Assembly (NCBI RefSeq): GCF_014279895.1
Contig: NZ_CP047954.1
Location: 186,001 to 250,000, forward strand
DNA: 64,000 bases
Source: Synechococcus sp. M16.1
Lineage (GTDB): Bacteria; Cyanobacteriota; Cyanobacteriia; PCC-6307; Cyanobiaceae
Reading direction: 5' to 3'
This document shows positions 16,438-33,108 of this stretch, piece after piece. The position numbers were made by a program, and so were the translations under genes. Numbering within the stretch: position 1 is the first letter of the stretch; each line of letters starts with the position of its first letter. A model generated the notes under the pieces. It searched no databases and was not told the DNA's origin. It saw only the letters and a list, made by a program, of their open reading frames with translations.

Positions 16438-16956
16438 ATGCCGCGCCTGCAACTGCTTTGGGGAGTCGCCCTGCTGCTGGGGGCCTGCGCTTCTCCAAAG
16501 GAACCGCCCAGCTGGCGATTGTTCTCTCTAAAGCGCCATTCCCCCCATGACGGGGTAGCTGTGGTCAATCAGCCCGATGGCTACGGGGTCCACATCTATC
16601 TGGAGACAGACACCAGTTTCCCGGGGGTGTGTCGTCCCCGATGGCTGCCGGATCCGGCCCGTCTGTTCAACGGCAATGGATCCACACCGTTCAGTTCCGG
16701 GTTGGCGACCCGTGAGGAGTTTTTTGATGCCGTGGCCCGGCGCGATGTGCGTGGCCTGTTGAAGAGCGAGCTGAAAGCTCTGTGCCAGGCCCGCGCTCCG
16801 GAAGACCGCTGGCAGTGGATCGAGCCGCCCCGGAACGATAAGCAGGTGGTTCCTGTGCAGCTGCCCTCACTCGAGGAGGAAGATCTGCTTACCAATCCCG
16901 TGGAGGAATTGAAGCGGGCCCGGCAGCTGCTGAGGGATCAACGGGCTGGTGAGTAG
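16438..16956 (+). CDS. Hypothetical lipoprotein
   Basis: No characterised family is recognised. The 172-residue product begins with a short signal (MPRLQLLWGVALLLGACAS) in which LGAC is a lipobox, giving a mature lipoprotein from about Cys17. The mature part is hydrophilic with a Glu-rich C-terminal helix (VEELKRARQLLRDQ). It is divergent from the thioredoxin-like gene with a 57-base gap, and overlaps the convergent photolyase-N-like gene by 19 bases. Confidence 0.75.
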   Translation: MPRLQLLWGVALLLGACASPKEPPSWRLFSLKRHSPHDGVAVVNQPDGYGVHIYLETDTSFPGVCRPRWLPDPARLFNGNGSTPFSSGLATREEFFDAVARRDVRGLLKSELKALCQARAPEDRWQWIEPPRNDKQVVPVQLPSLEEEDLLTNPVEELKRARQLLRDQRAGE

Positions 16957-17378
16957 CCCTCCCACACCACCGCTTCGGCATCGCGCCAGTAGCGGCTGAA
17001 CCGCCCCAGTCGTGGTGGCCGCGGCAGTTCCACGAACGGTTCGGGATCCAGCAGTTCAAGCGGCAGTTCTGCGTCGATGGCCTCGCCGATTCGCTCCAGG
17101 CGTGGATCTACAGAGCTGCTGCTCACCACACCATCGGCCTGATGGCGACGGGCAAAGGCCAGCACCTCATCGGCCACATCCCCCTTGCGCAGGGTGAGGG
17201 GAAGGTCGAGGGCGTTTTCGTAGAGGAAGCCGAGCCGTTTGCGGCTGATTCGTGCCTCTTGGATCCAACGGGTGTCGAACACGAACACCGCTGGTGACTC
17301 TGGCCAGGCCTGCAGCGCTGGGTTGTTGGCACCAAGGGCCTCCTCGTGAATCCAGAGGATCGGGCGTTGAAATGTCAT
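16938..17378 (-). CDS. Stand-alone photolyase N-terminal (antenna-like) domain protein
   Basis: The 146-residue product resembles only the Rossmann-like N-terminal domain of photolyases. It has ILWIHEEALGANNPAL where photolyases have the WFRRDLRLxDNPAL motif, then PAVFVFDTRWI, RLGFLYENALDLPLTLRKG and LAFARRHQADGVV. The two Arg of the usual RRD motif are replaced. It starts 15 bases after the gene for a photolyase FAD domain, so the pair looks like a photolyase split into two genes in swapped order. Biochemical activity is unknown. Confidence 0.75.
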   Translation of the reverse strand: MTFQRPILWIHEEALGANNPALQAWPESPAVFVFDTRWIQEARISRKRLGFLYENALDLPLTLRKGDVADEVLAFARRHQADGVVSSSSVDPRLERIGEAIDAELPLELLDPEPFVELPRPPRLGRFSRYWRDAEAVVWEGYSPAR

Positions 17379-17393
17379 CGAGGAATCTCCTGC

Positions 17394-18305
17394 TTATCGC
17401 TTGGGACGGGCCAGGGCGGCACTGGCGCCTCCGCTGCTCCGGCGTTGGCGGTTGCGCTGCTGGTTGCGGTTGTTGCCGGTCTCCCGTATGGCCGGCATCG
17501 GGGCGAACAGCTGGCTCTCCAGTTGGTCGTAGCTGCCTTCGAATGGGCAGCTGTTTGCGCTGGGGCAGCTGTCGCAGTAATGCCCGTCGCTGTAGCGCTC
17601 CAGGTTGCCGCGGTTGAAGAAGTAGGGCTTGTGGCTGAATGTGCTGGCCACCCATTGCCAGCTCAGATGGTTGCTGGCCGGATCGCCATCCAGCAGGTGC
17701 TCCAGGAACCAGTCGGCTCCGGCTTTCCAGTGCACCCGTCGCCAGTGCACGAGCCAGGCGGCCATCCACATGCGGGCGTGATTGTGCAGCCAGCCGGTCG
17801 TCACCAGTTGATCGCGGAAGCCATCCATGCAGGCCAGCCCTGTGCTGCCTGCGCGCACATCAGCCGGCAGTTCCCGGGCATAGGCCCCGGCGTCATGGCC
17901 TGTTTTGAACGGTTCCTGATCGTCATGGATGCCATCCCCCAGATCGAGCCACATCCGTTGCCAGAAGTCCCGCCAGCCGAGTTCGTTGATCAACTTTCCG
18001 CCCTCATCGCGGTTGCGGATCCGTGCAAACACTGAATCGCGCACCTCCGCGAGGGTCAGCACGCCGTGACGGATGTAGGGCGACAGCCCGGTGACCGCAC
18101 CCTTGAGGTGATTGCGACTTTTGGCGTAGCGCCTTGCGTCAATGCGCCGCAGTTTGTCTTCGGCTGCTTCACGCCCACCGCGGATCGGGCTGAGTTCCCC
18201 CTCCGCCCCTGGGAACTCTTGCGCCAACAGGGTGTTGAGGGCATCGCGGGACGCGAATTGCCGCGGCAGGTCGCCGTTGATCGGGGGTGACGCAGCGCTG
18301 GGCAC
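17394..18305 (-). CDS. Photolyase/cryptochrome FAD-binding domain protein with four-Cys FeS-like set
   Basis: The 303-residue protein consists of a photolyase C-terminal FAD domain without an antenna domain. It has ELGWRDFWQRMW (about 108-119), TTGWLHNHARMW (169-180) and LLDGDPASNHLSWQWVAST (204-222), the counterparts of FAD-contacting segments in photolyases. It contains exactly four Cys: 159, 244, 247 and 253, the last three in CDSCPSANSCPF. FeS-type bacterial photolyases (PhrB/CryB) ligate a [4Fe-4S] cluster with a similarly spaced set, so I infer a cluster here. It is divergent from fabI and precedes the antenna-like gene. Substrate unknown. Confidence 0.85.
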   Translation of the reverse strand: MPSAASPPINGDLPRQFASRDALNTLLAQEFPGAEGELSPIRGGREAAEDKLRRIDARRYAKSRNHLKGAVTGLSPYIRHGVLTLAEVRDSVFARIRNRDEGGKLINELGWRDFWQRMWLDLGDGIHDDQEPFKTGHDAGAYARELPADVRAGSTGLACMDGFRDQLVTTGWLHNHARMWMAAWLVHWRRVHWKAGADWFLEHLLDGDPASNHLSWQWVASTFSHKPYFFNRGNLERYSDGHYCDSCPSANSCPFEGSYDQLESQLFAPMPAIRETGNNRNQQRNRQRRSSGGASAALARPKR

Positions 18306-19869: not shown

Positions 19870-21339
19870 GTGACCGTCGCCCCCGCCCGCAGCTACGACC
19901 GCAGCGACTGGGCCAGTTCCTTTGTGAACGTTGAGCAGGAACTCACCGATGTGGCGCTGACCCCGGTGCGTGGAACGGTTCCGACGGAGCTTCAGGGCAC
20001 CTTTTATCGCAATGGCCCCGGGCGGCTTGAGCGGGATGGGCATCGGGTGCATCACCCCTTCGACGGCGACGGCATGATTGCGGCGATGCGGTTTGAGAAC
20101 GGCAGCGTCTGCCTCAGCAACCGTTTTGTGCGTACTGAGGGTTGGCTGGCGGAGGAGAAGGCCGGCAAGGTGCTCTACCGCGGCGTGTTCGGCAGTCAGA
20201 AGCCGGGTGGTCGGCTGGCCAATGCCTTTGACCTGCGCTTGAAGAACATCGCCAACACCAATGTGGTGCGTCTGGGTGATCAGCTGTTGGCCCTCTGGGA
20301 GGCGGCGGAACCCCATGCGCTCGATCCCCGCAGCCTGGAGACCCGCGGCCTGTCGCGCCTCGATGGTGTCTTGAAAAAGGGCGAGGCTTTCAGTGCTCAC
20401 CCCCGCTTCGACCCCGGCCACAACGGACGGCCCCGCATGGTCACCTTCGGGGTTAAGACCGGGCCCCGCAGCACCATCCGTCTGATGGAGTTCGCCACCG
20501 ATGGCCCGGACGCCGGCACCTTGCTGCACGACCGTTCCGACAGCTTCCCCGGCTTCGCCTTCCTCCACGATTTCGCCATCACCCCCAACTGGGCGGTGTT
20601 CCTCCAGAACGCCATCGCCTTTAATCCCTTGCCGTTTGTGACCGGCGAAAAGGGTGCGGCCCAGTGCTTGGCATCTCAACCCGGCGGCAAGGGGCGCTTC
20701 TGGCTGATCCCCCGCGATTCCGGCCGCTTCGCCGGTCAGAAGCCCCGCATTCTCGAAGCTCCCGACGGTTTCGTCTTCCATCACCTCAATGCCTTTGAGG
20801 ATGGCGATCACGTCGTGGTGGAGAGCATCGTCTACGACGATTTCCCGTCCATCGGACCTGATGAGGATTTCGCTGAGGTGAATTTCGACACGGTGCCGGA
20901 GGGAATCCTGCACCGTTGTCGCCTCGACCTCAGTCGGGAATCGGTGCAGACCGAGCGGATCAGCGAGCGCACCTGTGAGTTCGCTATGGTCAATCCCAAG
21001 CGTCAGGGCCTCAGCGCCCGCTTCGCCTGGATGGCGGTGGCGGAGCGGGAGAGGGGCAACGATCCGTTGCAGGCCATCCAGAAACTTGATCTGGATTCCG
21101 GGGAGACCCACACCTGGAGTGCGGCGCCCAGGGGCTTTGTGAGTGAGCCGTTGATGGTGCGTCGTCCCGGTGCTGAGGCAGAGGACGACGGCTGGGTGCT
21201 CGATCTGGTGTGGAACGGGGCCCGGGCCGCATCCGATCTGGTGATCCTCAACGCCCGTGATCTGTCGGAGGTGGCGGTGTTTGAGCTGCCGTTGGCCGTT
21301 CCCCATGGCCTGCACGGGAGCTGGGCACCCATCAGCTGA
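19870..21339 (+). CDS. Carotenoid oxygenase (apocarotenoid cleavage family)
   Basis: This is a non-heme Fe(II) carotenoid/apocarotenoid cleavage enzyme of the RPE65/ACO family, possibly forming retinal-type products. The 489-residue protein has GTFYRNGPGR near the start and HHPFDGDGMI. The four iron-ligand His positions are visible in FSAHPRFDP-, FLHDFAIT-, FHHLNAFEDG- and PHGLHGSW-type segments. The start is GTG at 19870. Its stop directly abuts the stop of the convergent BCCT gene with no spacer. The natural substrate cannot be assigned. Confidence 0.9.
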   Translation: MTVAPARSYDRSDWASSFVNVEQELTDVALTPVRGTVPTELQGTFYRNGPGRLERDGHRVHHPFDGDGMIAAMRFENGSVCLSNRFVRTEGWLAEEKAGKVLYRGVFGSQKPGGRLANAFDLRLKNIANTNVVRLGDQLLALWEAAEPHALDPRSLETRGLSRLDGVLKKGEAFSAHPRFDPGHNGRPRMVTFGVKTGPRSTIRLMEFATDGPDAGTLLHDRSDSFPGFAFLHDFAITPNWAVFLQNAIAFNPLPFVTGEKGAAQCLASQPGGKGRFWLIPRDSGRFAGQKPRILEAPDGFVFHHLNAFEDGDHVVVESIVYDDFPSIGPDEDFAEVNFDTVPEGILHRCRLDLSRESVQTERISERTCEFAMVNPKRQGLSARFAWMAVAERERGNDPLQAIQKLDLDSGETHTWSAAPRGFVSEPLMVRRPGAEAEDDGWVLDLVWNGARAASDLVILNARDLSEVAVFELPLAVPHGLHGSWAPIS

Positions 21340-22887
21340 TTAGCTGAGTCCTTCGCGCTTGGCTTCCCTCCAGGCCAGCCTTGGCGCGCTCCAGAGGGTG
21401 GCCAGCACCAAGGGAGTCACCGGCACCGCGGTGATCACGATGAAGGCTTGCAGGGCATCGATGGAGGTGCTGTCCCCCAGTCCCGAGCCGATTCGCAGCA
21501 GCACCAAGGTGAGGCTGCCGATCATCAAGGCCCAGAACAGGCGCAGCAGAGCAGGGGGCTCGTTGCGGCCGCTCACCACCATGGCCGCGGCGTAACTCAT
21601 TGAGTCGGCGCTGGTGCACATGAACAGCACCACCAGCACCAGGCCGACCGGAATCAGCAGACCGGCCAGGGGGAGTTGGCTGAGGATGGTGAGCAGGGCC
21701 GCGGCGGCTCCGTTCTGGGCCAGGGCTTCGCTGATGCCGCCCCCCGCCAATTCGAGATGCAATCCGGTGCCCCCCAGCAGGGTGAACCAAAGGTTGGTCA
21801 CGATCGGGCAGAAGATGGCCACCGCCAGCACCAGCTCACGGATGCTGCGGCCGCGGCTGACGCCGGCGGTGAACAGCCCCATCAAGGGCGCATAGCCGAG
21901 GAACCAGCCCCAGTAGAACACCGTCCAGCCGTTCACCCAGTTCGCCGGCACGGCATTGGGAGTGAGGGCCATCTGAGGCAGGTGGATCAGGTATGTGATG
22001 AAGCCGCTGAAGAAGTGCTGCATCAGCCAGAGGCCCGGGCCCAAAAGCAGCAGGCCCGCCGCCATGGCCAGGGTGAGCCACACATTGAGTTCCGACAGCC
22101 ACTTGATGCCCTTCTGAATGCCGCTGACGGTGGAGGTCGCGAAGACGGCGGTCAGCAGCACCACCACCAGGGATTGCAGGCCGGCACTGTCGCTGAGCCA
22201 GGGCAGTTGCCCTGCGGCATTGCTGAGCTGCAGCGAGAGGAAACCCAAGGGGCCAACCGTGCCGGCGATCGCCGCCACCACAGACAATCCATCCGCCAGG
22301 TGACCGAGCGGACCATCCACCCAGCTGCGCGGCACGATGTTCACCAGCAGCGCGCGGGGACGCAGGGGTTCACCGCGTCGCTCCAGGATCGAGAAGGTGA
22401 TCGTGGTGGTTGTGGCCACCAGGGCCCAGGCGAGGAAGCCCCAGTGCAGAAAACTCACCGCCAGGGCGGGATCCACCGCTGCGGCTGTGCTGCCCTCGAC
22501 CCCCGCAAACACCGGTGATGGGGTCTGGAAGTGGTAGAGCGGTTCGGCTGCCGACCAGAACACACCACCCCCCGCCAGCAGGGTGCAGATCAGCACTGCG
22601 CACCAGTCGAAGAATTTGAGACTGGGCTTGCTCTCCGCGCCTCCAAGCCGGAGTTTGCCGACTGGGCTGATGGCCAGGATCAGCGCGATCAGAAACAGCA
22701 GCATCACCATCCATTGCCAAACCCCGCCGAGGGCATCACTGATCACGGCTTTGCCGTTGTCGGTGAATTGCTTGGCCAGCGCCAGGTCGATGGCCGACAC
22801 CAGCAGAAAGATCAGCAGGGGAGCAGCCCCCACCCAGAGGGGGGGCTGGCGCCACCAGGAGCGCTGGTTCGCGGGGGTGTCAGACAT
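21340..22887 (-). CDS. BCCT-family betaine/carnitine/choline transporter
   Basis: BCCT carriers import zwitterionic quaternary amines, often as compatible solutes. The 515-residue protein has about 12 hydrophobic helices. It has the GGVFWSAAEPLYHF and SFLHWGFLAWAL signatures, and TVFYWGWFLGYAPLMGLF for the helix-8 aromatic box, ending SRGRSIRE. Compared with BetP the box has Phe and Tyr where Trp residues are usual, which may alter ligand preference. The cytoplasmic tails are short, so no BetP-type osmosensor is evident. It ends a four-gene run with the flavin oxidase, dehydrogenase and methyltransferase. Confidence 0.92.
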   Translation of the reverse strand: MSDTPANQRSWWRQPPLWVGAAPLLIFLLVSAIDLALAKQFTDNGKAVISDALGGVWQWMVMLLFLIALILAISPVGKLRLGGAESKPSLKFFDWCAVLICTLLAGGGVFWSAAEPLYHFQTPSPVFAGVEGSTAAAVDPALAVSFLHWGFLAWALVATTTTITFSILERRGEPLRPRALLVNIVPRSWVDGPLGHLADGLSVVAAIAGTVGPLGFLSLQLSNAAGQLPWLSDSAGLQSLVVVLLTAVFATSTVSGIQKGIKWLSELNVWLTLAMAAGLLLLGPGLWLMQHFFSGFITYLIHLPQMALTPNAVPANWVNGWTVFYWGWFLGYAPLMGLFTAGVSRGRSIRELVLAVAIFCPIVTNLWFTLLGGTGLHLELAGGGISEALAQNGAAAALLTILSQLPLAGLLIPVGLVLVVLFMCTSADSMSYAAAMVVSGRNEPPALLRLFWALMIGSLTLVLLRIGSGLGDSTSIDALQAFIVITAVPVTPLVLATLWSAPRLAWREAKREGLS

Positions 22888-22905
22888 CGGATGAGGGGTG
22901 AGGGT

Positions 22906-24096
22906 TCAGGCGCGGACGGCGGCGCGTTGGTGGCTCCAGCAGGAGAGATCCACCGCTGGTTGTTCTTCACTGGCGAGGCGTGCCAGGGAATCACCGATCA
23001 GGGGGGCGAACTTGAAGGCCTGGCCGGAGCCTCCTGCGAACAGGCTCAGCTTCGGGGTGAGCCGGTCCAGCACGAAGTTCACGTCGCTGGCCATGGAGTA
23101 AGGGCTGATCACGGTCTCCACCCGCTCCTGCACACCCTCCAGTTCGTTGAACAGGAAGGTGTCGAGCAGCTCCACCAGGCGAGCGGGTGGCTCGGTCACC
23201 ATGGCGTTGGGTTCGGCGACGCGCAGCTCCTTCGGAGCCCAGTCGATGCCCGCCTTGATCCGGGGGCGGCCATCCGCCGTTTGGCTGAGGACGGGGAATC
23301 CGTAGTAGAGGCCACCGTCATCGCCGCGTTCCTGCTGGAAGCAGAACCACTGGGGGTAGCGATCGGCCAGTGCCGGGTCGACGGTGTAATGGGCCCAGAG
23401 CATCGGCCACACCTCCAGTTTGGGTGAGAGGCCAAGAGGAGCCAGCAACAGCTGGCTCCAGATCCCACAGGCCACCACCAGCTGTCCGGCGGCGATGTGT
23501 TCGCCGCTCTCCAGGGTGACGCCACCGCCATCGGCATCGAGGCCCGCCACGGGGCAGTGCTCGATCAGCTGATGGCCGGCCTTGCGGGTGGTGTTGATCC
23601 AGTGGGCCACGACCCTGTCGCTGCGCACGGCGCCGGCGGTGGGCTCGAACAGTCCGGTGAAGCCCGGCTTCGGCTTCAGCGGAAAACGGGCCGCGATCTG
23701 GTCGGCGTTGAGGGCCTGATAGGGGATGCCCTGATAGTCCATGACCCGTCGGGCCCCGGGGATCGACCCCTCGATCGTCTCTTCATCCCAGCTTTCGCCG
23801 TAGAAGAGCAGGCCGTGGGTCTCCCGCAGTTGCTGACCGGCGTGGTTTTCTTCCTCGCGCCAGAGGCGGTTGGCCTCCTGGGCGAGACGGCAGAGCACCG
23901 GGTCGGAATACATCTCCCGGAACATCCGGGTTTCGCCATAGCTGCTGGCTTTGGCGTGGGCCAGGGTCTGAGCTTCCAGCAGCACCACATCGCGCACGCC
24001 GCGACGGGCCAGGGATGCAGCGCAGCTGAGGCCGGCCATGCCGCCGCCAACAATCACGACGGCTGCCCGCCTGGGCAGGGACGCTGGTGTGCTCAT
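22906..24096 (-). CDS. Sarcosine oxidase/pipecolate oxidase-family flavoenzyme (DAO superfamily)
   Basis: This FAD-dependent amine oxidase is related to monomeric sarcosine oxidase, N-methyltryptophan oxidase, pipecolate oxidase and NikD. The dinucleotide loop is VIVGGGMAGLSC (residues 15-26). SSYGETRMFREMY (51-63) matches the flavin-contact loop. Lys281 and Lys362 (GQAFKFAP) align with oxygen-activating and substrate-contact lysines of sarcosine oxidase. The cysteine that links FAD covalently is replaced by Ser331 by my alignment, so FAD is probably non-covalent. The start overlaps the dehydrogenase stop by 4 bases. The substrate is unknown. Confidence 0.88.
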   Translation of the reverse strand: MSTPASLPRRAAVVIVGGGMAGLSCAASLARRGVRDVVLLEAQTLAHAKASSYGETRMFREMYSDPVLCRLAQEANRLWREEENHAGQQLRETHGLLFYGESWDEETIEGSIPGARRVMDYQGIPYQALNADQIAARFPLKPKPGFTGLFEPTAGAVRSDRVVAHWINTTRKAGHQLIEHCPVAGLDADGGGVTLESGEHIAAGQLVVACGIWSQLLLAPLGLSPKLEVWPMLWAHYTVDPALADRYPQWFCFQQERGDDGGLYYGFPVLSQTADGRPRIKAGIDWAPKELRVAEPNAMVTEPPARLVELLDTFLFNELEGVQERVETVISPYSMASDVNFVLDRLTPKLSLFAGGSGQAFKFAPLIGDSLARLASEEQPAVDLSCWSHQRAAVRA

Positions 24097-25148
24097 TCGA
24101 TTTCTCCAAAGCTGAGGCCGATGGGCTCGGTGGAGGGTGTTGCAGCCACCTCCTCAAGGGCTGCACCCACAGACAGGCCCTGTTCGCGCTGATTCAGATA
24201 CTCGCTGGCCCGTCGGCGCACCTCATCGCGAACGAAGGTATAGACGTCCTTGGCACCAGCGTCTTTCCAGGCGTCGGGGGAGAACCGCTCGATTGAGTCG
24301 GCGATCACAGCTCCTGCATTCACCAGGGGGTCCGGCAGCACCCGCACACCGCGGCGACGCAGGTCATCCGCCAGTTGGGGTTGCAGGAAGGGGGCATTGG
24401 CGGCAGGCACCACGGCGGGGGTTTTCAGCGCCGTCGCCATTTCGGCGTTGATCAATCCGGAGATCGAGCAGGGCAGCAGCAGGTCGAGGTTCAGTTCCCA
24501 CCAAGCACAGCTCTCCGGCAGCGGCGTTGCGCCGGGAAAACTGGCTTTCTCGCGGTCCAGATCCACGGTGAACACGGTCCAACCGTGCTCGACGAGATGG
24601 CGGGCAACGGTGCCGCCAACGGCACCGCAGCCGTGCACGAGGGCCCGGCCTGGGCGGGCGTCGTTGAGGTCCTTGTCCAAAACGGCCTCCACAGCGCCGA
24701 GGGTGCCGTGGGCGGTGGCGGCACTGGCGTCCACAGGGCTGCCGACCGCCGCCAGCACATGGGGGGTGAGCGCCGTCAGACGCTCCATGTCCTCCAGGCT
24801 GGTGTTGAGATCGCAGCCGGTGATCATCGCGCCGTCAAGCGACTCCAGCAGCTCGGCGGTGACGCTGATCAGCTCATCCTTGACGGCATCGGGCTCAGCG
24901 GCCCGGGCAACGATCTTGCCGCCGGCGAAACCGGTGCCGTAAAGATCGTGCTTGTGGGTCATCAACCCCGCCAGCCGCTGGCCGTCTGCGATGCAGGCCT
25001 CATCGCTCGGGTAATTGAGCACCCGCAGGCCTCCGTTGGCGGGGCGCTTGGCATCGGTGTCTTCCGCCACCACGAACACCGAGAGGTGGTCGGAGACGTG
25101 TTCCGCCAGCACCGACACGGTCGGCGCTGTTTTCTTGCCGCTGCTCAT
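24093..25148 (-). CDS. Glu/Leu/Phe/Val dehydrogenase-family amino-acid dehydrogenase
   Basis: This NAD(P)-dependent enzyme oxidatively deaminates an amino acid or aminates a 2-oxo acid. From the ATG at 25148 the product is 351 residues, close to leucine dehydrogenase. The substrate-binding and catalytic Lys66 (MTHK) and Lys78 (FAGGK) are present, as is the catalytic Asp113 (ITGCDLNT). The nucleotide loop is GCGAVG at 173-178, and Asp196 at the end of the second strand favours NAD. Cyanobacterial relatives include ScyB, which deaminates tryptophan. Its start overlaps the methyltransferase stop, and its end overlaps the oxidase start. Confidence 0.88.
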   Translation of the reverse strand: MSSGKKTAPTVSVLAEHVSDHLSVFVVAEDTDAKRPANGGLRVLNYPSDEACIADGQRLAGLMTHKHDLYGTGFAGGKIVARAAEPDAVKDELISVTAELLESLDGAMITGCDLNTSLEDMERLTALTPHVLAAVGSPVDASAATAHGTLGAVEAVLDKDLNDARPGRALVHGCGAVGGTVARHLVEHGWTVFTVDLDREKASFPGATPLPESCAWWELNLDLLLPCSISGLINAEMATALKTPAVVPAANAPFLQPQLADDLRRRGVRVLPDPLVNAGAVIADSIERFSPDAWKDAGAKDVYTFVRDEVRRRASEYLNQREQGLSVGAALEEVAATPSTEPIGLSFGEIE

Positions 25149-26185
25149 CAGGCCACCTTCTCCATCATCTGGTGGTGCTCGACGTAGTCGAGGCTCCATT
25201 CGCTGGGGGCTTCGGCGATGCGCTGCTGCAGCCGCTCGAACACCGTGTCTGCTGCGGTGTCGCCGGCAGCACTGGCGAAGCTGTGGCGGCTCCAGCTGCG
25301 GATCGTCGCCATCAATCCGGCGGCGAAAGTCGCCGTGTCACCGTTCTCGTTCCAGCGGCGTCGGTAAGGGCACTTCACGTAAACGGTGCGCTCGTCCACC
25401 AGCCGCAGGCCGTTGCGGTAGGCGGCGCTGCTCTCGTCCTTCAGCGGAGCCATGAACTCCTCGGGGGACTTGTAGAAGTTGAGAACTGTGCCTTGTTGGT
25501 ACTGCTCCTGGCTGATCAGGCCTTCCTCGGCCATGCCCCGCCAGATCTGGTGCAGCTGGTCGTGCACGTTGCGGGTTTCGCCGCCGTTGTGGCCGAGATA
25601 GAGCCCTGCTTCATCACGGGAGAGATTCACCGTCAGCAGGCGGCCGCCCAGCTTCAGTTCGCGGCTGCGCAGCTCGAGGATGTGGTTCCAGTCCTTCATC
25701 GCCTGGGCGGTGAAGCGCTGAAGCGCGTCGGCATCACCGGACGCCAACACATGGGTGTGGCTGTTCAGGGGGCCGGGGGAGGCGCTCAGCCAGTGCATTG
25801 CCGTGGCGGAAAAACCGAAGCTCACCGAGTTCGGCGCCACGGAGGGCTCGTAGAAGCTGCGGGCACTCACCAGCACCGTTGGTTTCGGATCCCGGGGGAT
25901 CTGCAGGGCCAGGTTGTTGGCCAAAGCAAGGTTGTCGTTGCTCGGCAGGTCGTTGCCGATCAACGTCAGGTGGGCCTTCGGCTGGTTGGCATGCAGGCGA
26001 TCCAGCACCTGGTTCCAGAGCCCAACGGCGGTTCCACCATCGGCAGCTCCGTAATCGATCAGGACATGGCTGTCAGCAACAGCCAGTTGATTCACACAAG
26101 TCAGGGCCCAGTCCGAGGCGGCTTCGATGCACAGAAGAGCGCCCTCGGTCTGCGCGCTGTAACCCGTGGTCATGGCGATGGCCAT
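25148..26185 (-). CDS. SABATH-family (Methyltransf_7) SAM-dependent methyltransferase
   Basis: SABATH enzymes methylate carboxyl groups of small acids or ring nitrogens (caffeine and trigonelline synthases) and are best known in plants. The 345-residue protein has the SAM motif DYGAADGGTAVG (44-55), NDLPSNDNLAL (78-88) corresponding to the plant NDLPxNDFN motif, ARSFYEPSVAPNSV (108-121) and SATAMHWLSASP (126-137). Trp132 aligns with the substrate-carboxylate Trp of salicylate methyltransferase. A second ATG at 26173 is an alternative start. It leads a four-gene cassette and is 69 bases after rdgB. Substrate unknown; a pyridine carboxylate is one possibility. Confidence 0.88.
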   Translation of the reverse strand: MAIAMTTGYSAQTEGALLCIEAASDWALTCVNQLAVADSHVLIDYGAADGGTAVGLWNQVLDRLHANQPKAHLTLIGNDLPSNDNLALANNLALQIPRDPKPTVLVSARSFYEPSVAPNSVSFGFSATAMHWLSASPGPLNSHTHVLASGDADALQRFTAQAMKDWNHILELRSRELKLGGRLLTVNLSRDEAGLYLGHNGGETRNVHDQLHQIWRGMAEEGLISQEQYQQGTVLNFYKSPEEFMAPLKDESSAAYRNGLRLVDERTVYVKCPYRRRWNENGDTATFAAGLMATIRSWSRHSFASAAGDTAADTVFERLQQRIAEAPSEWSLDYVEHHQMMEKVA

Positions 26186-28349: not shown

Positions 28350-29825
28350 ATGGGTGACACCCCGGCTGCCGACAACGCTCTCACCGACCGGTTGCTGCGC
28401 AGTTGGCTGCGTTGCCGTCGCAAGGCCTGGCTCGATCGCCACGGGAATCCTGCCGAGCGGCGTTGGACGGCCCATCGCAATCTCCTGCTGGACGACCAGC
28501 AACGCTGTTTTGTGGCCTTGCTCCCCCGCAAGCCTGGCCATGGCATCGCTGCCTGTGCTGCCGGAGCCGAGGCCGTGGTGGGTCTGCGCCTGAAGGGGCT
28601 TGGCCCATCCGGTGAGCCGTTGGAGGCACACCCTCCACTGCTGCGGCGGGTCAAGGGGAAGAGCCGCTGGGGTGACTTCGCCTATCAACCGGTGCTGGCC
28701 CGTCAGGGCCGCCGCACCACCCGGGAACATCAGCTGCCGCTGGCGCTGATGGCCCTGTTGCTTGAGCAGCATCAGCAGGGGGACGTTCCGTCGATGCTGG
28801 TGCTCGGCGGTGGTGGCCGGCGCCTGGAACAGGAGCGGCTGCATCTCTCCAGTGGTCTGTGCCGACAGCTGTCGGAGGGGCTGCGCAAACTGCGCTCTGA
28901 CCTCGAGCGCCCGGTTCCTCCTCCGCTGGCCGCTGACCGGCGCAAGTGCTCACTTTGCAGCTGGCGTGTCGCCTGCAATGCCGTGGCGGCGGAGGAAGGG
29001 CATCTGAGCGAGGTCAGCGGCATCGGCGCCAAGCGGCGCGAGATGTTGCTGGAGCTTGGGATTCGCGGCTTGTCCGATCTGGCCGCGGCTGATCCTTTGC
29101 AGCTCGCCGAGCAGCTGCAACGTTTTGGGGATCAGCATGGTGAGGTGGCCGCATCCCTGGTGGCTCAGGCCCGGGCGCAGCGGGATGGACGGGTGGAGCG
29201 TTTGGATGCCTCAGCGGCACTGCCGGAACTGCAGGACTGTCCTGGTGTGCTGCTCTACGACATCGAATCCGATCCCGACGCCCGTCACGACTTCCTGCAC
29301 GGTTTTCTGGTGTTGCCCAGAACCAAAAGCGGATACTGGGATCTGGCATCTGTGGCATATCACCCGATCCTGGCCCTGGCGGAGCATGGTGAAGCCCGTT
29401 GCTGGCTGCGTTTGCAACGGTTGCTGAATCGCTATCGGGGTTGGCCGATCCTCCACTACGGGGAGACAGAAAGCCTGGCCTTAAGGCGTATGGCTGAGCG
29501 CCAGGGTGCTGCAGAGGCCGAGGTGCTGCAGCTTCGTCAGCGGTTGGTGGATGTGCATGCCCGGGTCAGACATCACTGGCGCCTACCCCTGGCCAGTTAT
29601 GGCCTCAAGGCCGTGGCTGTTTGGCAGGGGTTCCAATGGAGTCAGGCCGGTGTGGATGGGGCCAGGGCCCTGCTCTGGTGGCGGCAGTGGCAGGGGGAGG
29701 GGCCCGATCGACGCGGCACCAGGCACGGGCTGCGCTGGATCTTCGATTACAACCGCGACGACTGCCTGGCCACCTGGGCCGTAGCCGACTGGTTGCTTGA
29801 ACAGGATCAGGCGTCGGGATCCTGA
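28350..29825 (+). CDS. TM0106-family RecB-like putative nuclease
   Basis: This belongs to the predicted RecB-type nucleases with a C-terminal RNase H-like domain. The N-terminal region (LRSWLRCRRKAWLD) resembles the RecB/CRISPR Cas4-like start. A cysteine group RKCSLCSWRVAC at about 200-210 could, with an upstream Cys, bind an Fe-S cluster. A helix-hairpin-helix-like segment (VSGIGAKRREMLLELGI) follows at about 222-238, then an exonuclease-like DIESDPDARHDFL and a terminal YNRDDCLATWAV. The substrate and role are not established. It overlaps ygfZ by 19 bases on the opposite strand. Confidence 0.82.
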   Translation: MGDTPAADNALTDRLLRSWLRCRRKAWLDRHGNPAERRWTAHRNLLLDDQQRCFVALLPRKPGHGIAACAAGAEAVVGLRLKGLGPSGEPLEAHPPLLRRVKGKSRWGDFAYQPVLARQGRRTTREHQLPLALMALLLEQHQQGDVPSMLVLGGGGRRLEQERLHLSSGLCRQLSEGLRKLRSDLERPVPPPLAADRRKCSLCSWRVACNAVAAEEGHLSEVSGIGAKRREMLLELGIRGLSDLAAADPLQLAEQLQRFGDQHGEVAASLVAQARAQRDGRVERLDASAALPELQDCPGVLLYDIESDPDARHDFLHGFLVLPRTKSGYWDLASVAYHPILALAEHGEARCWLRLQRLLNRYRGWPILHYGETESLALRRMAERQGAAEAEVLQLRQRLVDVHARVRHHWRLPLASYGLKAVAVWQGFQWSQAGVDGARALLWWRQWQGEGPDRRGTRHGLRWIFDYNRDDCLATWAVADWLLEQDQASGS

Positions 29826-30601
29826 AACGCCTCAGGTTGACGGATCTGGAGCTGTTCTCCGTTGGGACCTTCCAGCGTTGGACTGGCCAGGCACTGGCGG
29901 CGCACCAGGGCCAGCCCAAGCCAAGTGCCATCGCGTTCGAGCGCACTGGTGATCACCCCGGCTCGCTCGCCATCCAGCGTGAGCTTGGCGGCGGCCGCCA
30001 GCGGACTGGGGCAGCTCCAACAGCGCAGCTGTTGCTTCACCCCTGCCTGGCCGATGAGTTTGGCCATGGTCTCCTGGCCGAGGTAGCAGCCTTTCTCTGT
30101 GCTGACCTGCGCGACAAGCCCAAGCTCCAGGGGGTTGGTCTCGCCATTGAGTTCACCGGGTCCCGGGGGGAATCCGGTTTGCAGTCGCCATTGCTCCAGA
30201 GCCGTCGCGGTGGCTGCTTCCCCTGATGCCCAGGGCTCCGGCAGGGCCGCATCCGGATCGCACCACACGGCTGCAGCCATGGGCTCGAGCCACTGCAGTC
30301 GGCGCAACTGGCCCAGGGGTTGGAGGCGAACCCGATCGGCTGGAAAGATCACCTGATCAAATCCAGCGTGAACCGCAGAGGCCTCTCCCGCCAGAACGAT
30401 CACATCGGCCCCCTCCGCATCGAAACGAAGTTCCAGCACGGCCCGCAAGCGTCCCGTTGCGGTCAGCCAGCAGGTCTGAAGCAGATCCCCGGATTGGAGT
30501 GCGTTGAGGTCAGCACTGGTCTGCCCCTGAAGAAACTGGCGTGCTCCGCTGCCGTTCAAGCGCAGCCAGGGAACCTGGGCGTTCCAAAACAACTTGCTCA
30601 T
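29807..30601 (-). CDS. ygfZ: YgfZ/GcvT-like folate-binding protein
   Basis: YgfZ proteins bind tetrahydrofolate and help maintain Fe-S enzymes. The 264-residue product has [11 protein letters not shown] near the start and the diagnostic motif KGCYLGQE (K-G-C-[YF]-x-G-Q-E) at about 180-187, which holds the functionally important Cys. It is the smaller, GcvT-like single-domain type rather than an aminomethyltransferase. Its start overlaps the pyrE stop by 4 bases. Confidence 0.9.
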
Positions 30602-31738: not shown

Positions 31739-31811
31739 GGGGGTCTAGCAATCTGGTGAATGCAGCGAACTCATAATTCGCCTAAGGCGAGTTCGATCCT
31801 CGCGACCCCCA
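31739..31811 (+). tRNA. tRNA-Met (anticodon CAT)
   Basis: Acceptor arms GGGGGTC and GACCCCC pair perfectly. The anticodon arm is GCGAA-CTCATAA-TTCGC with anticodon CAT, and the T arm GCGAG-TTCGATC-CTCGC is perfect. The discriminator is A and CCA is not encoded. A fully paired first base pair and lack of the three G-C pairs in the anticodon stem argue against initiator tRNA; a lysidine-modified tRNA-Ile with the same anticodon is a minor alternative. Confidence 0.93.
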
Positions 31812-31824
31812 TTCCCCCCTGTTG

Positions 31825-33108
31825 ATGCGGCTTCTTCTGCTGGCTGTTCTGCTGGTTCTGCCGGCCTTCTTCGCGGCTGCAGAGGTGGCCCTGCTGCGGC
31901 TGCGCCCCAGTCGCGTTGAAGTGCTCGTTGAGGAAGAGCAGGCCGGGGCCCGTTCCATCCAGCGTCTTCAGCGACGCCTGCGGCGCGCTCTGCTGGTGTC
32001 TCAATTGGGTGCAACCCTTGCTCTGGTGGCCCTTGGCTGGGCTGGCCGTGGTCTGGGGGGGCGGCTCTGGTCGGATGGGTCTGTGGGTGTCGCTTGGCGC
32101 GACACAGCCTTGTTCCTCAGCATCGTGTTGCTGGCTACGCTGGTGGCTGGTTTGCTGCCCAAGGCCTGGGTGTTGAACCGTCCGGAATCTTCGGCGCTTC
32201 GCCTGGTGCCGCTGCTGGAGGTGGTGATGCGCTGCCTGGCCCCACTGCTCAATCTGCTTGAGGCGCTGGCGGGCCTGTTGATGCGCCTGCTTGGCCTGGC
32301 TCCCCAATGGGATGTGCTGGTGCCAGCCCTTTCCGCTGGTGAGCTGGAAACCCTTGTGGAATCTGGACGGGTCACGGGCTTGTTCCCGGATGAGAAGAAC
32401 ATCCTCGAAGGTGTCTTCGCCCTGCGGGACACCCAGGTGCGGGAGGTGATGGTGCCGCGCTCTGGGATGGTCACTCTGCCGGCCACGGTCCGTTTTGCGG
32501 AAATGATGGAGGCCGTGCACCACACCCGTCATGCCCGCTTTCCGGTGATCGGCCAGTCGTTGGATGACGTGCGCGGCGTGCTGGATCTGCGTCAGATGGC
32601 CGAACCGATCGCACGGGGTGAGCTCCAGGCCGATTCGTTGCTCGAGCCGTATCTCCAGCCTGCGGTGCCCGTGCTGGAGACCTGCACGCTGGCGGAACTG
32701 CTGCCGATGATCCGCAGCGGTCAGCCGCTCCTGCTGGTGGTGGATGAACACGGTGGAACCGAGGGTCTGGTGACCGCTGCGGACCTCACCGGAGAAATCG
32801 TTGGTGATGAGGATCCCGCCGAGACCGACGAACCGGATCTGCTCGAAGAGGAGGACTGCCTCGGTGCCTGGCTGGTGGCCGGAGATCTGGAGATTTTCGA
32901 GCTCAACCGACAGCTCGATCTCGATCTGCCCGAGGCCGATGACCATCACACCCTGGCGGGCTTCCTGCTGGAGCGGCTCCAGCACATTCCGTCCGCGGGG
33001 GAAGGGCTTCATTTCAACGGCCTTCAGTTCGAGATCACAGCCATGGCAGGGCCGCGGATCGAGCGGGTCCGGCTTGTTCTCCCCAGCTCAGAGGAAGATT
33101 CCGACTGA
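31825..33108 (+). CDS. CNNM/HlyC-type membrane protein with DUF21, CBS and CorC_HlyC domains
   Basis: These proteins are annotated as hemolysin-like and may export or sense Mg2+ or other cations; true hemolysin activity is unlikely. The product has a DUF21 membrane part (about residues 1-150, three to four helices). Two CBS domains (about 205-320) contain VREVMVPRSGMVTL and VRGVLDLRQM, and the C-terminal CorC_HlyC domain lies at about 345-420. The ATG at 31825 is preferred over an adjacent TTG. It begins 13 bases after tRNA-Met. Confidence 0.87.
   Translation: MRLLLLAVLLVLPAFFAAAEVALLRLRPSRVEVLVEEEQAGARSIQRLQRRLRRALLVSQLGATLALVALGWAGRGLGGRLWSDGSVGVAWRDTALFLSIVLLATLVAGLLPKAWVLNRPESSALRLVPLLEVVMRCLAPLLNLLEALAGLLMRLLGLAPQWDVLVPALSAGELETLVESGRVTGLFPDEKNILEGVFALRDTQVREVMVPRSGMVTLPATVRFAEMMEAVHHTRHARFPVIGQSLDDVRGVLDLRQMAEPIARGELQADSLLEPYLQPAVPVLETCTLAELLPMIRSGQPLLLVVDEHGGTEGLVTAADLTGEIVGDEDPAETDEPDLLEEEDCLGAWLVAGDLEIFELNRQLDLDLPEADDHHTLAGFLLERLQHIPSAGEGLHFNGLQFEITAMAGPRIERVRLVLPSSEEDSD

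Follow-up and report, generated by a model that had tools for sequence, protein, structure and literature searches.

What product could link a methyltransferase, an amino acid dehydrogenase, a flavin-dependent oxidase and a betaine-type carrier that are encoded side by side? The question is raised by a 64,000-nucleotide stretch (the window hereafter; positions 186001-250000) of the closed 2.11 Mb genome of Synechococcus sp. M16.1, a marine picocyanobacterium, in which four such genes form a compact operon. The best explanation, to which we assign a probability of about 0.74, is that the three-enzyme module and its carrier make homarine (N-methylpicolinate) from L-lysine. In this scheme, the dehydrogenase (DH) would remove the alpha-amino group of lysine in a reaction linked to nicotinamide adenine dinucleotide (NAD), giving 2-keto-6-aminohexanoate, which would close spontaneously to piperideine-2-carboxylate (P2C). 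A NikD-like oxidase (SOX) would then carry out a four-electron oxidation of P2C with O2 to picolinate, the ring nitrogen of which would be methylated by the S-adenosylmethionine (SAM)-dependent methyltransferase (MT) to yield homarine. As a betaine, homarine would serve as a compatible solute, and the carrier would take it up or recapture it. Every substrate, the choice of N- over O-methylation, the direction of transport and the osmotic role are what we infer here. The four genes are as follows, in window coordinates.

25148..26185, minus strand: MT, SABATH-family (Methyltransf_7) SAM-dependent methyltransferase, first gene of the operon (345 amino acids; PF03492, 7.3e-23)
24093..25148, minus strand: DH, ELFV (Glu/Leu/Phe/Val) dehydrogenase (351 amino acids; PF00208, 6e-16, plus N-terminal PF02812)
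22906..24096, minus strand: SOX, monomeric sarcosine-oxidase-family flavoenzyme, NikD-like (396 amino acids; DAO PF01266, 6e-44)
21340..22887, minus strand: BCCT carrier (515 amino acids; PF02028, 4.8e-128)

The initial annotation had described four packed minus-strand genes between 21340 and 26185, and this is borne out: the MT and DH genes share 1 base (TGATG), those for DH and SOX share 4 (ATGA), and an 18-base gap precedes the carrier gene. Its four family assignments likewise agree with Pfam (Methyltransf_7, ELFV_dehydrog, DAO and BCCT). A longer DH start at 25199 was dropped in favour of the ATG at 25148, as the latter yields the usual overlap and the extra length is unneeded. MT is the sole Methyltransf_7 gene, and the carrier gene the sole BCCT gene, found in this genome.

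The case for picolinate begins with the oxidase. NikD is its top match in the PDB, with E-values of 5.3e-37 by phmmer and 1.5e-42 by profile, and ranks first by E-value in Foldseek; further matches are the T. roseum sarcosine oxidase (2.5e-34), Bacillus monomeric sarcosine oxidase (MSOX, about 5e-27) and MTOX (2.4e-26). Sequence identity is about 31% to NikD versus about 23% to Bacillus MSOX. Arg60, Glu109, Tyr265 and Lys362 of SOX correspond to Arg53, Glu101, Tyr258 and Lys358 of NikD, and the equivalences of Arg60, Lys362 and Glu109 agree across two aligners. We take Arg53 and Lys358 to grip the carboxylate in NikD, and Glu101 and Asp276 to lie in its pocket. At the place of Glu101, MSOX has Ala102. 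At the place of MSOX His269, SOX has Asp285, which HMMER aligns with NikD Asp276; this aspartate is probably kept. We propose SOX as a candidate oxidase converting P2C to picolinate.

The dehydrogenase would supply the P2C. Both of its Pfam domains exceed their cut-offs (59.3 and 28.4 bits versus 23.4 and 25.3), and the nearest solved structures are leucine and tryptophan dehydrogenases. The GGK motif, Gly76-Gly77-Lys78, is invariant, with Lys78 presumably the catalytic lysine, and Asp113 of the superfamily is kept. The Rossmann motif is followed by an aspartate (Asp196), which suggests a preference for NAD. Side-chain preference in the superfamily is set by Lys89/Ser380 in glutamate dehydrogenase and by Leu40/Val294 in leucine dehydrogenase; we take the equivalents in DH to be Asn38 and Asp284. 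These two residues are invariant in all aligned cassette dehydrogenases, including a copy from Myxococcales, while the solved leucine and tryptophan dehydrogenases have Leu or Met at the first position and Val at the second. The gapless pocket alignment is backed by a common Glu287 and by a continuous helix, 279–289, in an AlphaFold2 model (mean pLDDT 87); a two-residue gap placed by HMMER against one leucine dehydrogenase would break this helix. The resulting acidic pocket fits lysine, and would fit ornithine as well. Assignment of DH as the ScyB tryptophan dehydrogenase was ruled out by its score (100 bits versus a cut-off of 600) and its different pocket. We therefore regard DH, on the strength of its pocket, as a candidate lysine 2-dehydrogenase yielding P2C. 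Lysine deamination by the dehydrogenase and NikD-type oxidation to picolinate were both part of the initial annotation, and both gain support from the acidic pocket of the former and from the NikD-type residues and top PDB match of the latter.

The methyltransferase scores 81.7 bits against Methyltransf_7 (cut-off 29.8), and all its PDB matches are SABATH enzymes, comprising both O- and N-methyltransferases. Trp132 and His131 are invariant in 19 sequences and Gln12 in 15 cyanobacterial ones. Gln12 and Trp132 seem to be the counterparts of the residues by which salicylate methyltransferase holds its carboxylate; because both are kept, the substrate of MT is likely a small carboxylate. Gene context narrows this further. 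In Candidatus Electrothrix gigas (L096, QYLO01000019.1; 5865-8047, 10370-11971), a related SABATH gene lies 8 bases past nadA, the quinolinate synthase gene (4e-85), and a probable L-aspartate oxidase (nadB-like) gene is found further downstream on the same contig. This adjacency to nadA links the SABATH branch to pyridine carboxylates, and the Electrothrix pair is a candidate for making a methylated pyridine from quinolinate. The operon and the nadA-linked relative thus point to a pyridine-carboxylate enzyme, and we propose MT as a candidate picolinate N-methyltransferase, with the acceptor atom being a matter that the sequence does not decide.

The carrier is a full-length match to PF02028 (428 bits, residues 18-506) with the TSADS motif, presumably the sodium-site motif of BCCT proteins. 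BCCT carriers move betaines, usually importing them, and the presence of one beside a methyltransferase is most simply explained by a product that is a betaine. Cassette carriers have in common the pocket motifs YWGWFLGY and AWALV/AWGLV, most of which the Myxococcales carrier also has (YWGWFLSY, AWGLV). From these features we propose the cassette BCCT as a candidate carrier for uptake or recapture of homarine.

If the enzymes serve one pathway, they should travel together, and they do. Genome searches within the order recovered MT, SOX and DH in an identical set of 52 of 299 genomes, with one genome beyond these having DH only. Random agreement of two 52-genome sets out of 299 would have a chance of about 1e-59, a figure that kinship among the genomes keeps from being a true probability. 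Presence and absence vary even within genera; gene order and strand are constant across the loci examined. G065 belongs to the same genus and has intact rdgB and carotenoid-oxygenase genes at the conserved syntenic site, which holds none of the four cassette genes; the cassette is gained or lost as one unit. The BCCT gene is adjacent to the enzymes in 46 of the 52 genomes. The other six, all Prochlorococcus-type, keep MT, DH and SOX together without an adjacent carrier gene; a BCCT homologue is encoded elsewhere in two of them, and searches at the threshold used gave no BCCT match in the other four. The core is therefore MT-DH-SOX, and the carrier is accessory. Among the named genomes that have the cassette are Synechococcus WH7803, RCC307 and MU1642, and Prochlorococcus MIT 9201, MIT 9401, HNLC1 and HNLC2. 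The MT-DH-SOX-BCCT order recurs in a second phylum, on a metagenome contig from Myxococcales (L093), where identity is 47% for MT, 46% for DH and 53% for SOX. A tree of MT, made by a quick method and with long branches, places Synechococcus and Prochlorococcus in two sister groups, with L093 and the Candidatus Electrothrix gene outside both and the remaining bacterial relatives in a separate group. Among viral contigs no MT relative was found, and hence no sign of phage carriage.

Measurements of homarine in these cells provide further support. The two Synechococcus strains that were tested for it, WH8102 and WH7803, both contained it (PMC8269262). The initial annotation had described it as reportedly abundant in marine Synechococcus; its presence stands, whereas the abundance needs correcting, since the standard contained picolinic acid and the earlier values were divided by about 25, to up to 18 mM in WH8102 and about 0.2 mM in WH7803 (PMC10134881). 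WH7803 (L059) has all four cassette genes with full-length profile matches. In WH8102, a carrier annotated as BetT, SYNW0229, lies in a predicted five-gene operon, SYNW0229-0233, the other members of which were taken as possible transporter subunits (Mao et al. 2010, PMC2874817). In number, these five genes would match BCCT, SOX, DH, MT and rdgB, and from this annotated operon WH8102 very probably carries the cassette. Together with the SABATH relative beside nadA, these two strains favour the overall pathway first suggested from the window, in which the chemistry is still read from genes.

Several points nevertheless weigh against homarine as the product. First, the SOX fold is equally like NikD and MSOX (TM score about 0.8 to both) and does not tell them apart, so that only sequence residues were used for this purpose. 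Among these residues, MAFFT leaves a gap where HMMER sets NikD Asp276 on Asp285. Moreover, SOX has Gln359 and Ser331, both invariant in 14 family sequences, in place of NikD Trp355 and the flavin-linking Cys321. Because Ser331 replaces this cysteine, the flavin adenine dinucleotide (FAD) of SOX is probably not covalently bound; and as both the cysteine of covalent FAD and the mobile Trp355 are missing, we name the enzyme NikD-like, not NikD. The ambiguous fold, the nearest NCBIfam model (N-methyl-tryptophan oxidase, matched under its cut-off) and the usual import by BCCT carriers would all suit a catabolic cassette, in which N-methyl amines or betaines enter through the carrier and are demethylated by SOX, after which DH releases nitrogen from the product by deamination. 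We consider this very unlikely: it offers no role for a SAM-dependent MT that is the first gene and accompanies DH and SOX in all 52 genomes, and it sits poorly with the six genomes that keep the enzymes without an adjacent carrier, with the NikD-like pocket of SOX and with the acidic pocket of DH. The departures from NikD at Trp355 and Cys321 would also agree with the same enzyme logic on another substrate, as would Asp284 of DH, which suits any basic side chain. Thus, ornithine might be carried to a five-membered ring, or another basic amino acid might be used, ending in a different N-methylated solute. This is unlikely as well, since a six-membered pyridine product is what one would expect from NikD being the nearest relative of SOX, from the nadA-linked SABATH gene and from homarine in a strain with the cassette.

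Second, the closest solved relative of MT is a fatty acid O-methyltransferase (2.8e-22), followed by indole-acetate/salicylate-type enzymes, and plant O-methyltransferases outscore plant N-methyltransferases in the PDB ranking. This order, together with the apparently kept Gln and Trp, would be expected if MT, at the end of the same picolinate route, esterified the carboxylate, so that a volatile or signal, methyl picolinate, was formed in place of homarine. We give that end point a very low probability, because a betaine carrier would be superfluous for a methyl ester, while BCCT genes are present in both the Synechococcus and the Myxococcales operons, and because the compound reported from these cells is homarine, not methyl picolinate. 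Third, marine Synechococcus also make glycine betaine, and for this reason the BCCT may move glycine betaine instead. Fourth, WH7803 has all four genes yet about 100 times less homarine than WH8102, which itself was not found in the sequence sets searched; and diatoms too hold homarine. With these points considered, homarine synthesis from lysine is still the explanation that we favour.

Broken copies of the cassette offer natural tests of the homarine prediction. In G077, the loss of 4 bases, one CGCA of a near-repeat, shifts the frame of MT (L043:7198-8231), and the DH, SOX and BCCT matches have no internal stop, making this a natural methyltransferase-null strain. A 1-base deletion in the MT of G093 may be an assembly error; the SOX match of G025 is partial or frame-shifted, and a TGA lies inside the BCCT match of G156. 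A lone DH homologue in G053 (L045:8573-9586, same family) has about 60% identity and keeps Asn38 and Asp284; no MT or SOX was found genome-wide in G053 at the thresholds used. Cassette-like BCCT genes also occur apart from the enzymes in Prochlorococcus-type genomes (G255:C1:472157-473650 and G066:C1:1401994-1403481), and in G179, also Prochlorococcus-type, such a gene (L050:6350-7864) is present and the enzymes are absent. Genomes with a detached carrier of this kind are possible homarine scavengers.

More distant SABATH genes, with 33–37% identity (L100-L127), come mostly from Proteobacteria (Gammaproteobacteria, Phreatobacter), with others from SAR324, Actinomycetota and elsewhere. Their neighbourhoods have no DH, convincing SOX or BCCT, and they were for this reason set aside as functional evidence. 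They often lie beside families that by eye resemble TRAP transport genes, which suggests a different, uncharacterised carboxylate-methylating system.

As for the surroundings of the cassette, a carotenoid-oxygenase (RPE65 family) gene occupies window positions 19870-21339 on the plus strand, its last base abutting the BCCT stop at 21340. Between the two, relatives have a gene that by eye is SIMPL-like, and sometimes an apparent carrier gene too. The window also has open reading frames of 172–413 amino acids that match no Pfam family, at 29807-30601 and 31771-33012 on the minus strand and at 16438-16956 and 17346-18035 on the plus strand.

Homarine ranks with the major small nitrogenous metabolites in particles of the surface ocean; according to a study of 2021, there was a lack of genetic information on how it is made and degraded (PMC8269247). 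The titles and abstracts of the homarine literature since 2023 report no biosynthesis genes, most subscription papers and preprints being outside this search. We think it rather probable that the module constitutes the first genetically defined homarine pathway, in which the dehydrogenase turns lysine into P2C, a NikD-like oxidase that binds FAD non-covalently turns P2C into picolinate, and a bacterial SABATH N-methyltransferase turns picolinate into homarine; that most marine Synechococcus have it, as do some Prochlorococcus and a myxobacterium; and that the Electrothrix relative may methylate a quinolinate-derived pyridine. With the gene set defined, it would become possible to predict which picocyanobacteria supply homarine to heterotrophs, to trace its production in metagenomes and metatranscriptomes and to examine the osmolyte role by simple knock-outs. 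If true, the pathway would also assign SABATH enzymes a clear function in bacteria and add a new, dehydrogenase-started route to picolinate.

Comparison with known systems places each protein within a familiar family and apart from its characterised members. Like TmaT (8ZW8), DddT and BetP, the carrier is a full-length BCCT protein with the TSADS motif; unlike the cassette carriers, with YWGWFLGY and AWALV, the trimethylamine carrier TmaT has YWAWWIAW and AWGIY. MT belongs to the same family, across residues 43-328, as the fatty acid O-methyltransferase 5F2K, the salicylate carboxyl methyltransferase 1M6E and the caffeine-type N-methyltransferases 2EFJ, 2EG5 and 6LYI, but it is bacterial, shares an operon with a P2C-type oxidase and is not especially close to any N-methyltransferase. 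DH has the fold and the GGK and GxGxxG motifs of leucine and tryptophan (ScyB) dehydrogenases (PDB 7VID, 8GXD, 6ACF and 5B37), with Asn38 and Asp284 in its pocket in place of Leu/Met and Val. The T. roseum sarcosine oxidase is nearly as close to SOX overall as NikD is but, unlike SOX, lacks the pocket Glu and retains the Cys. By sequence, the closest solved relative of SOX is NikD itself (PDB 2OLN, 2OLO, 2Q6U and 3HZL), the P2C oxidase of nikkomycin synthesis. In that pathway, lysine is converted to P2C by a lysine 2-aminotransferase, and P2C to picolinic acid by the NikD-type oxidase (PMC4021061), whereas in the route proposed here a dehydrogenase would provide the P2C.

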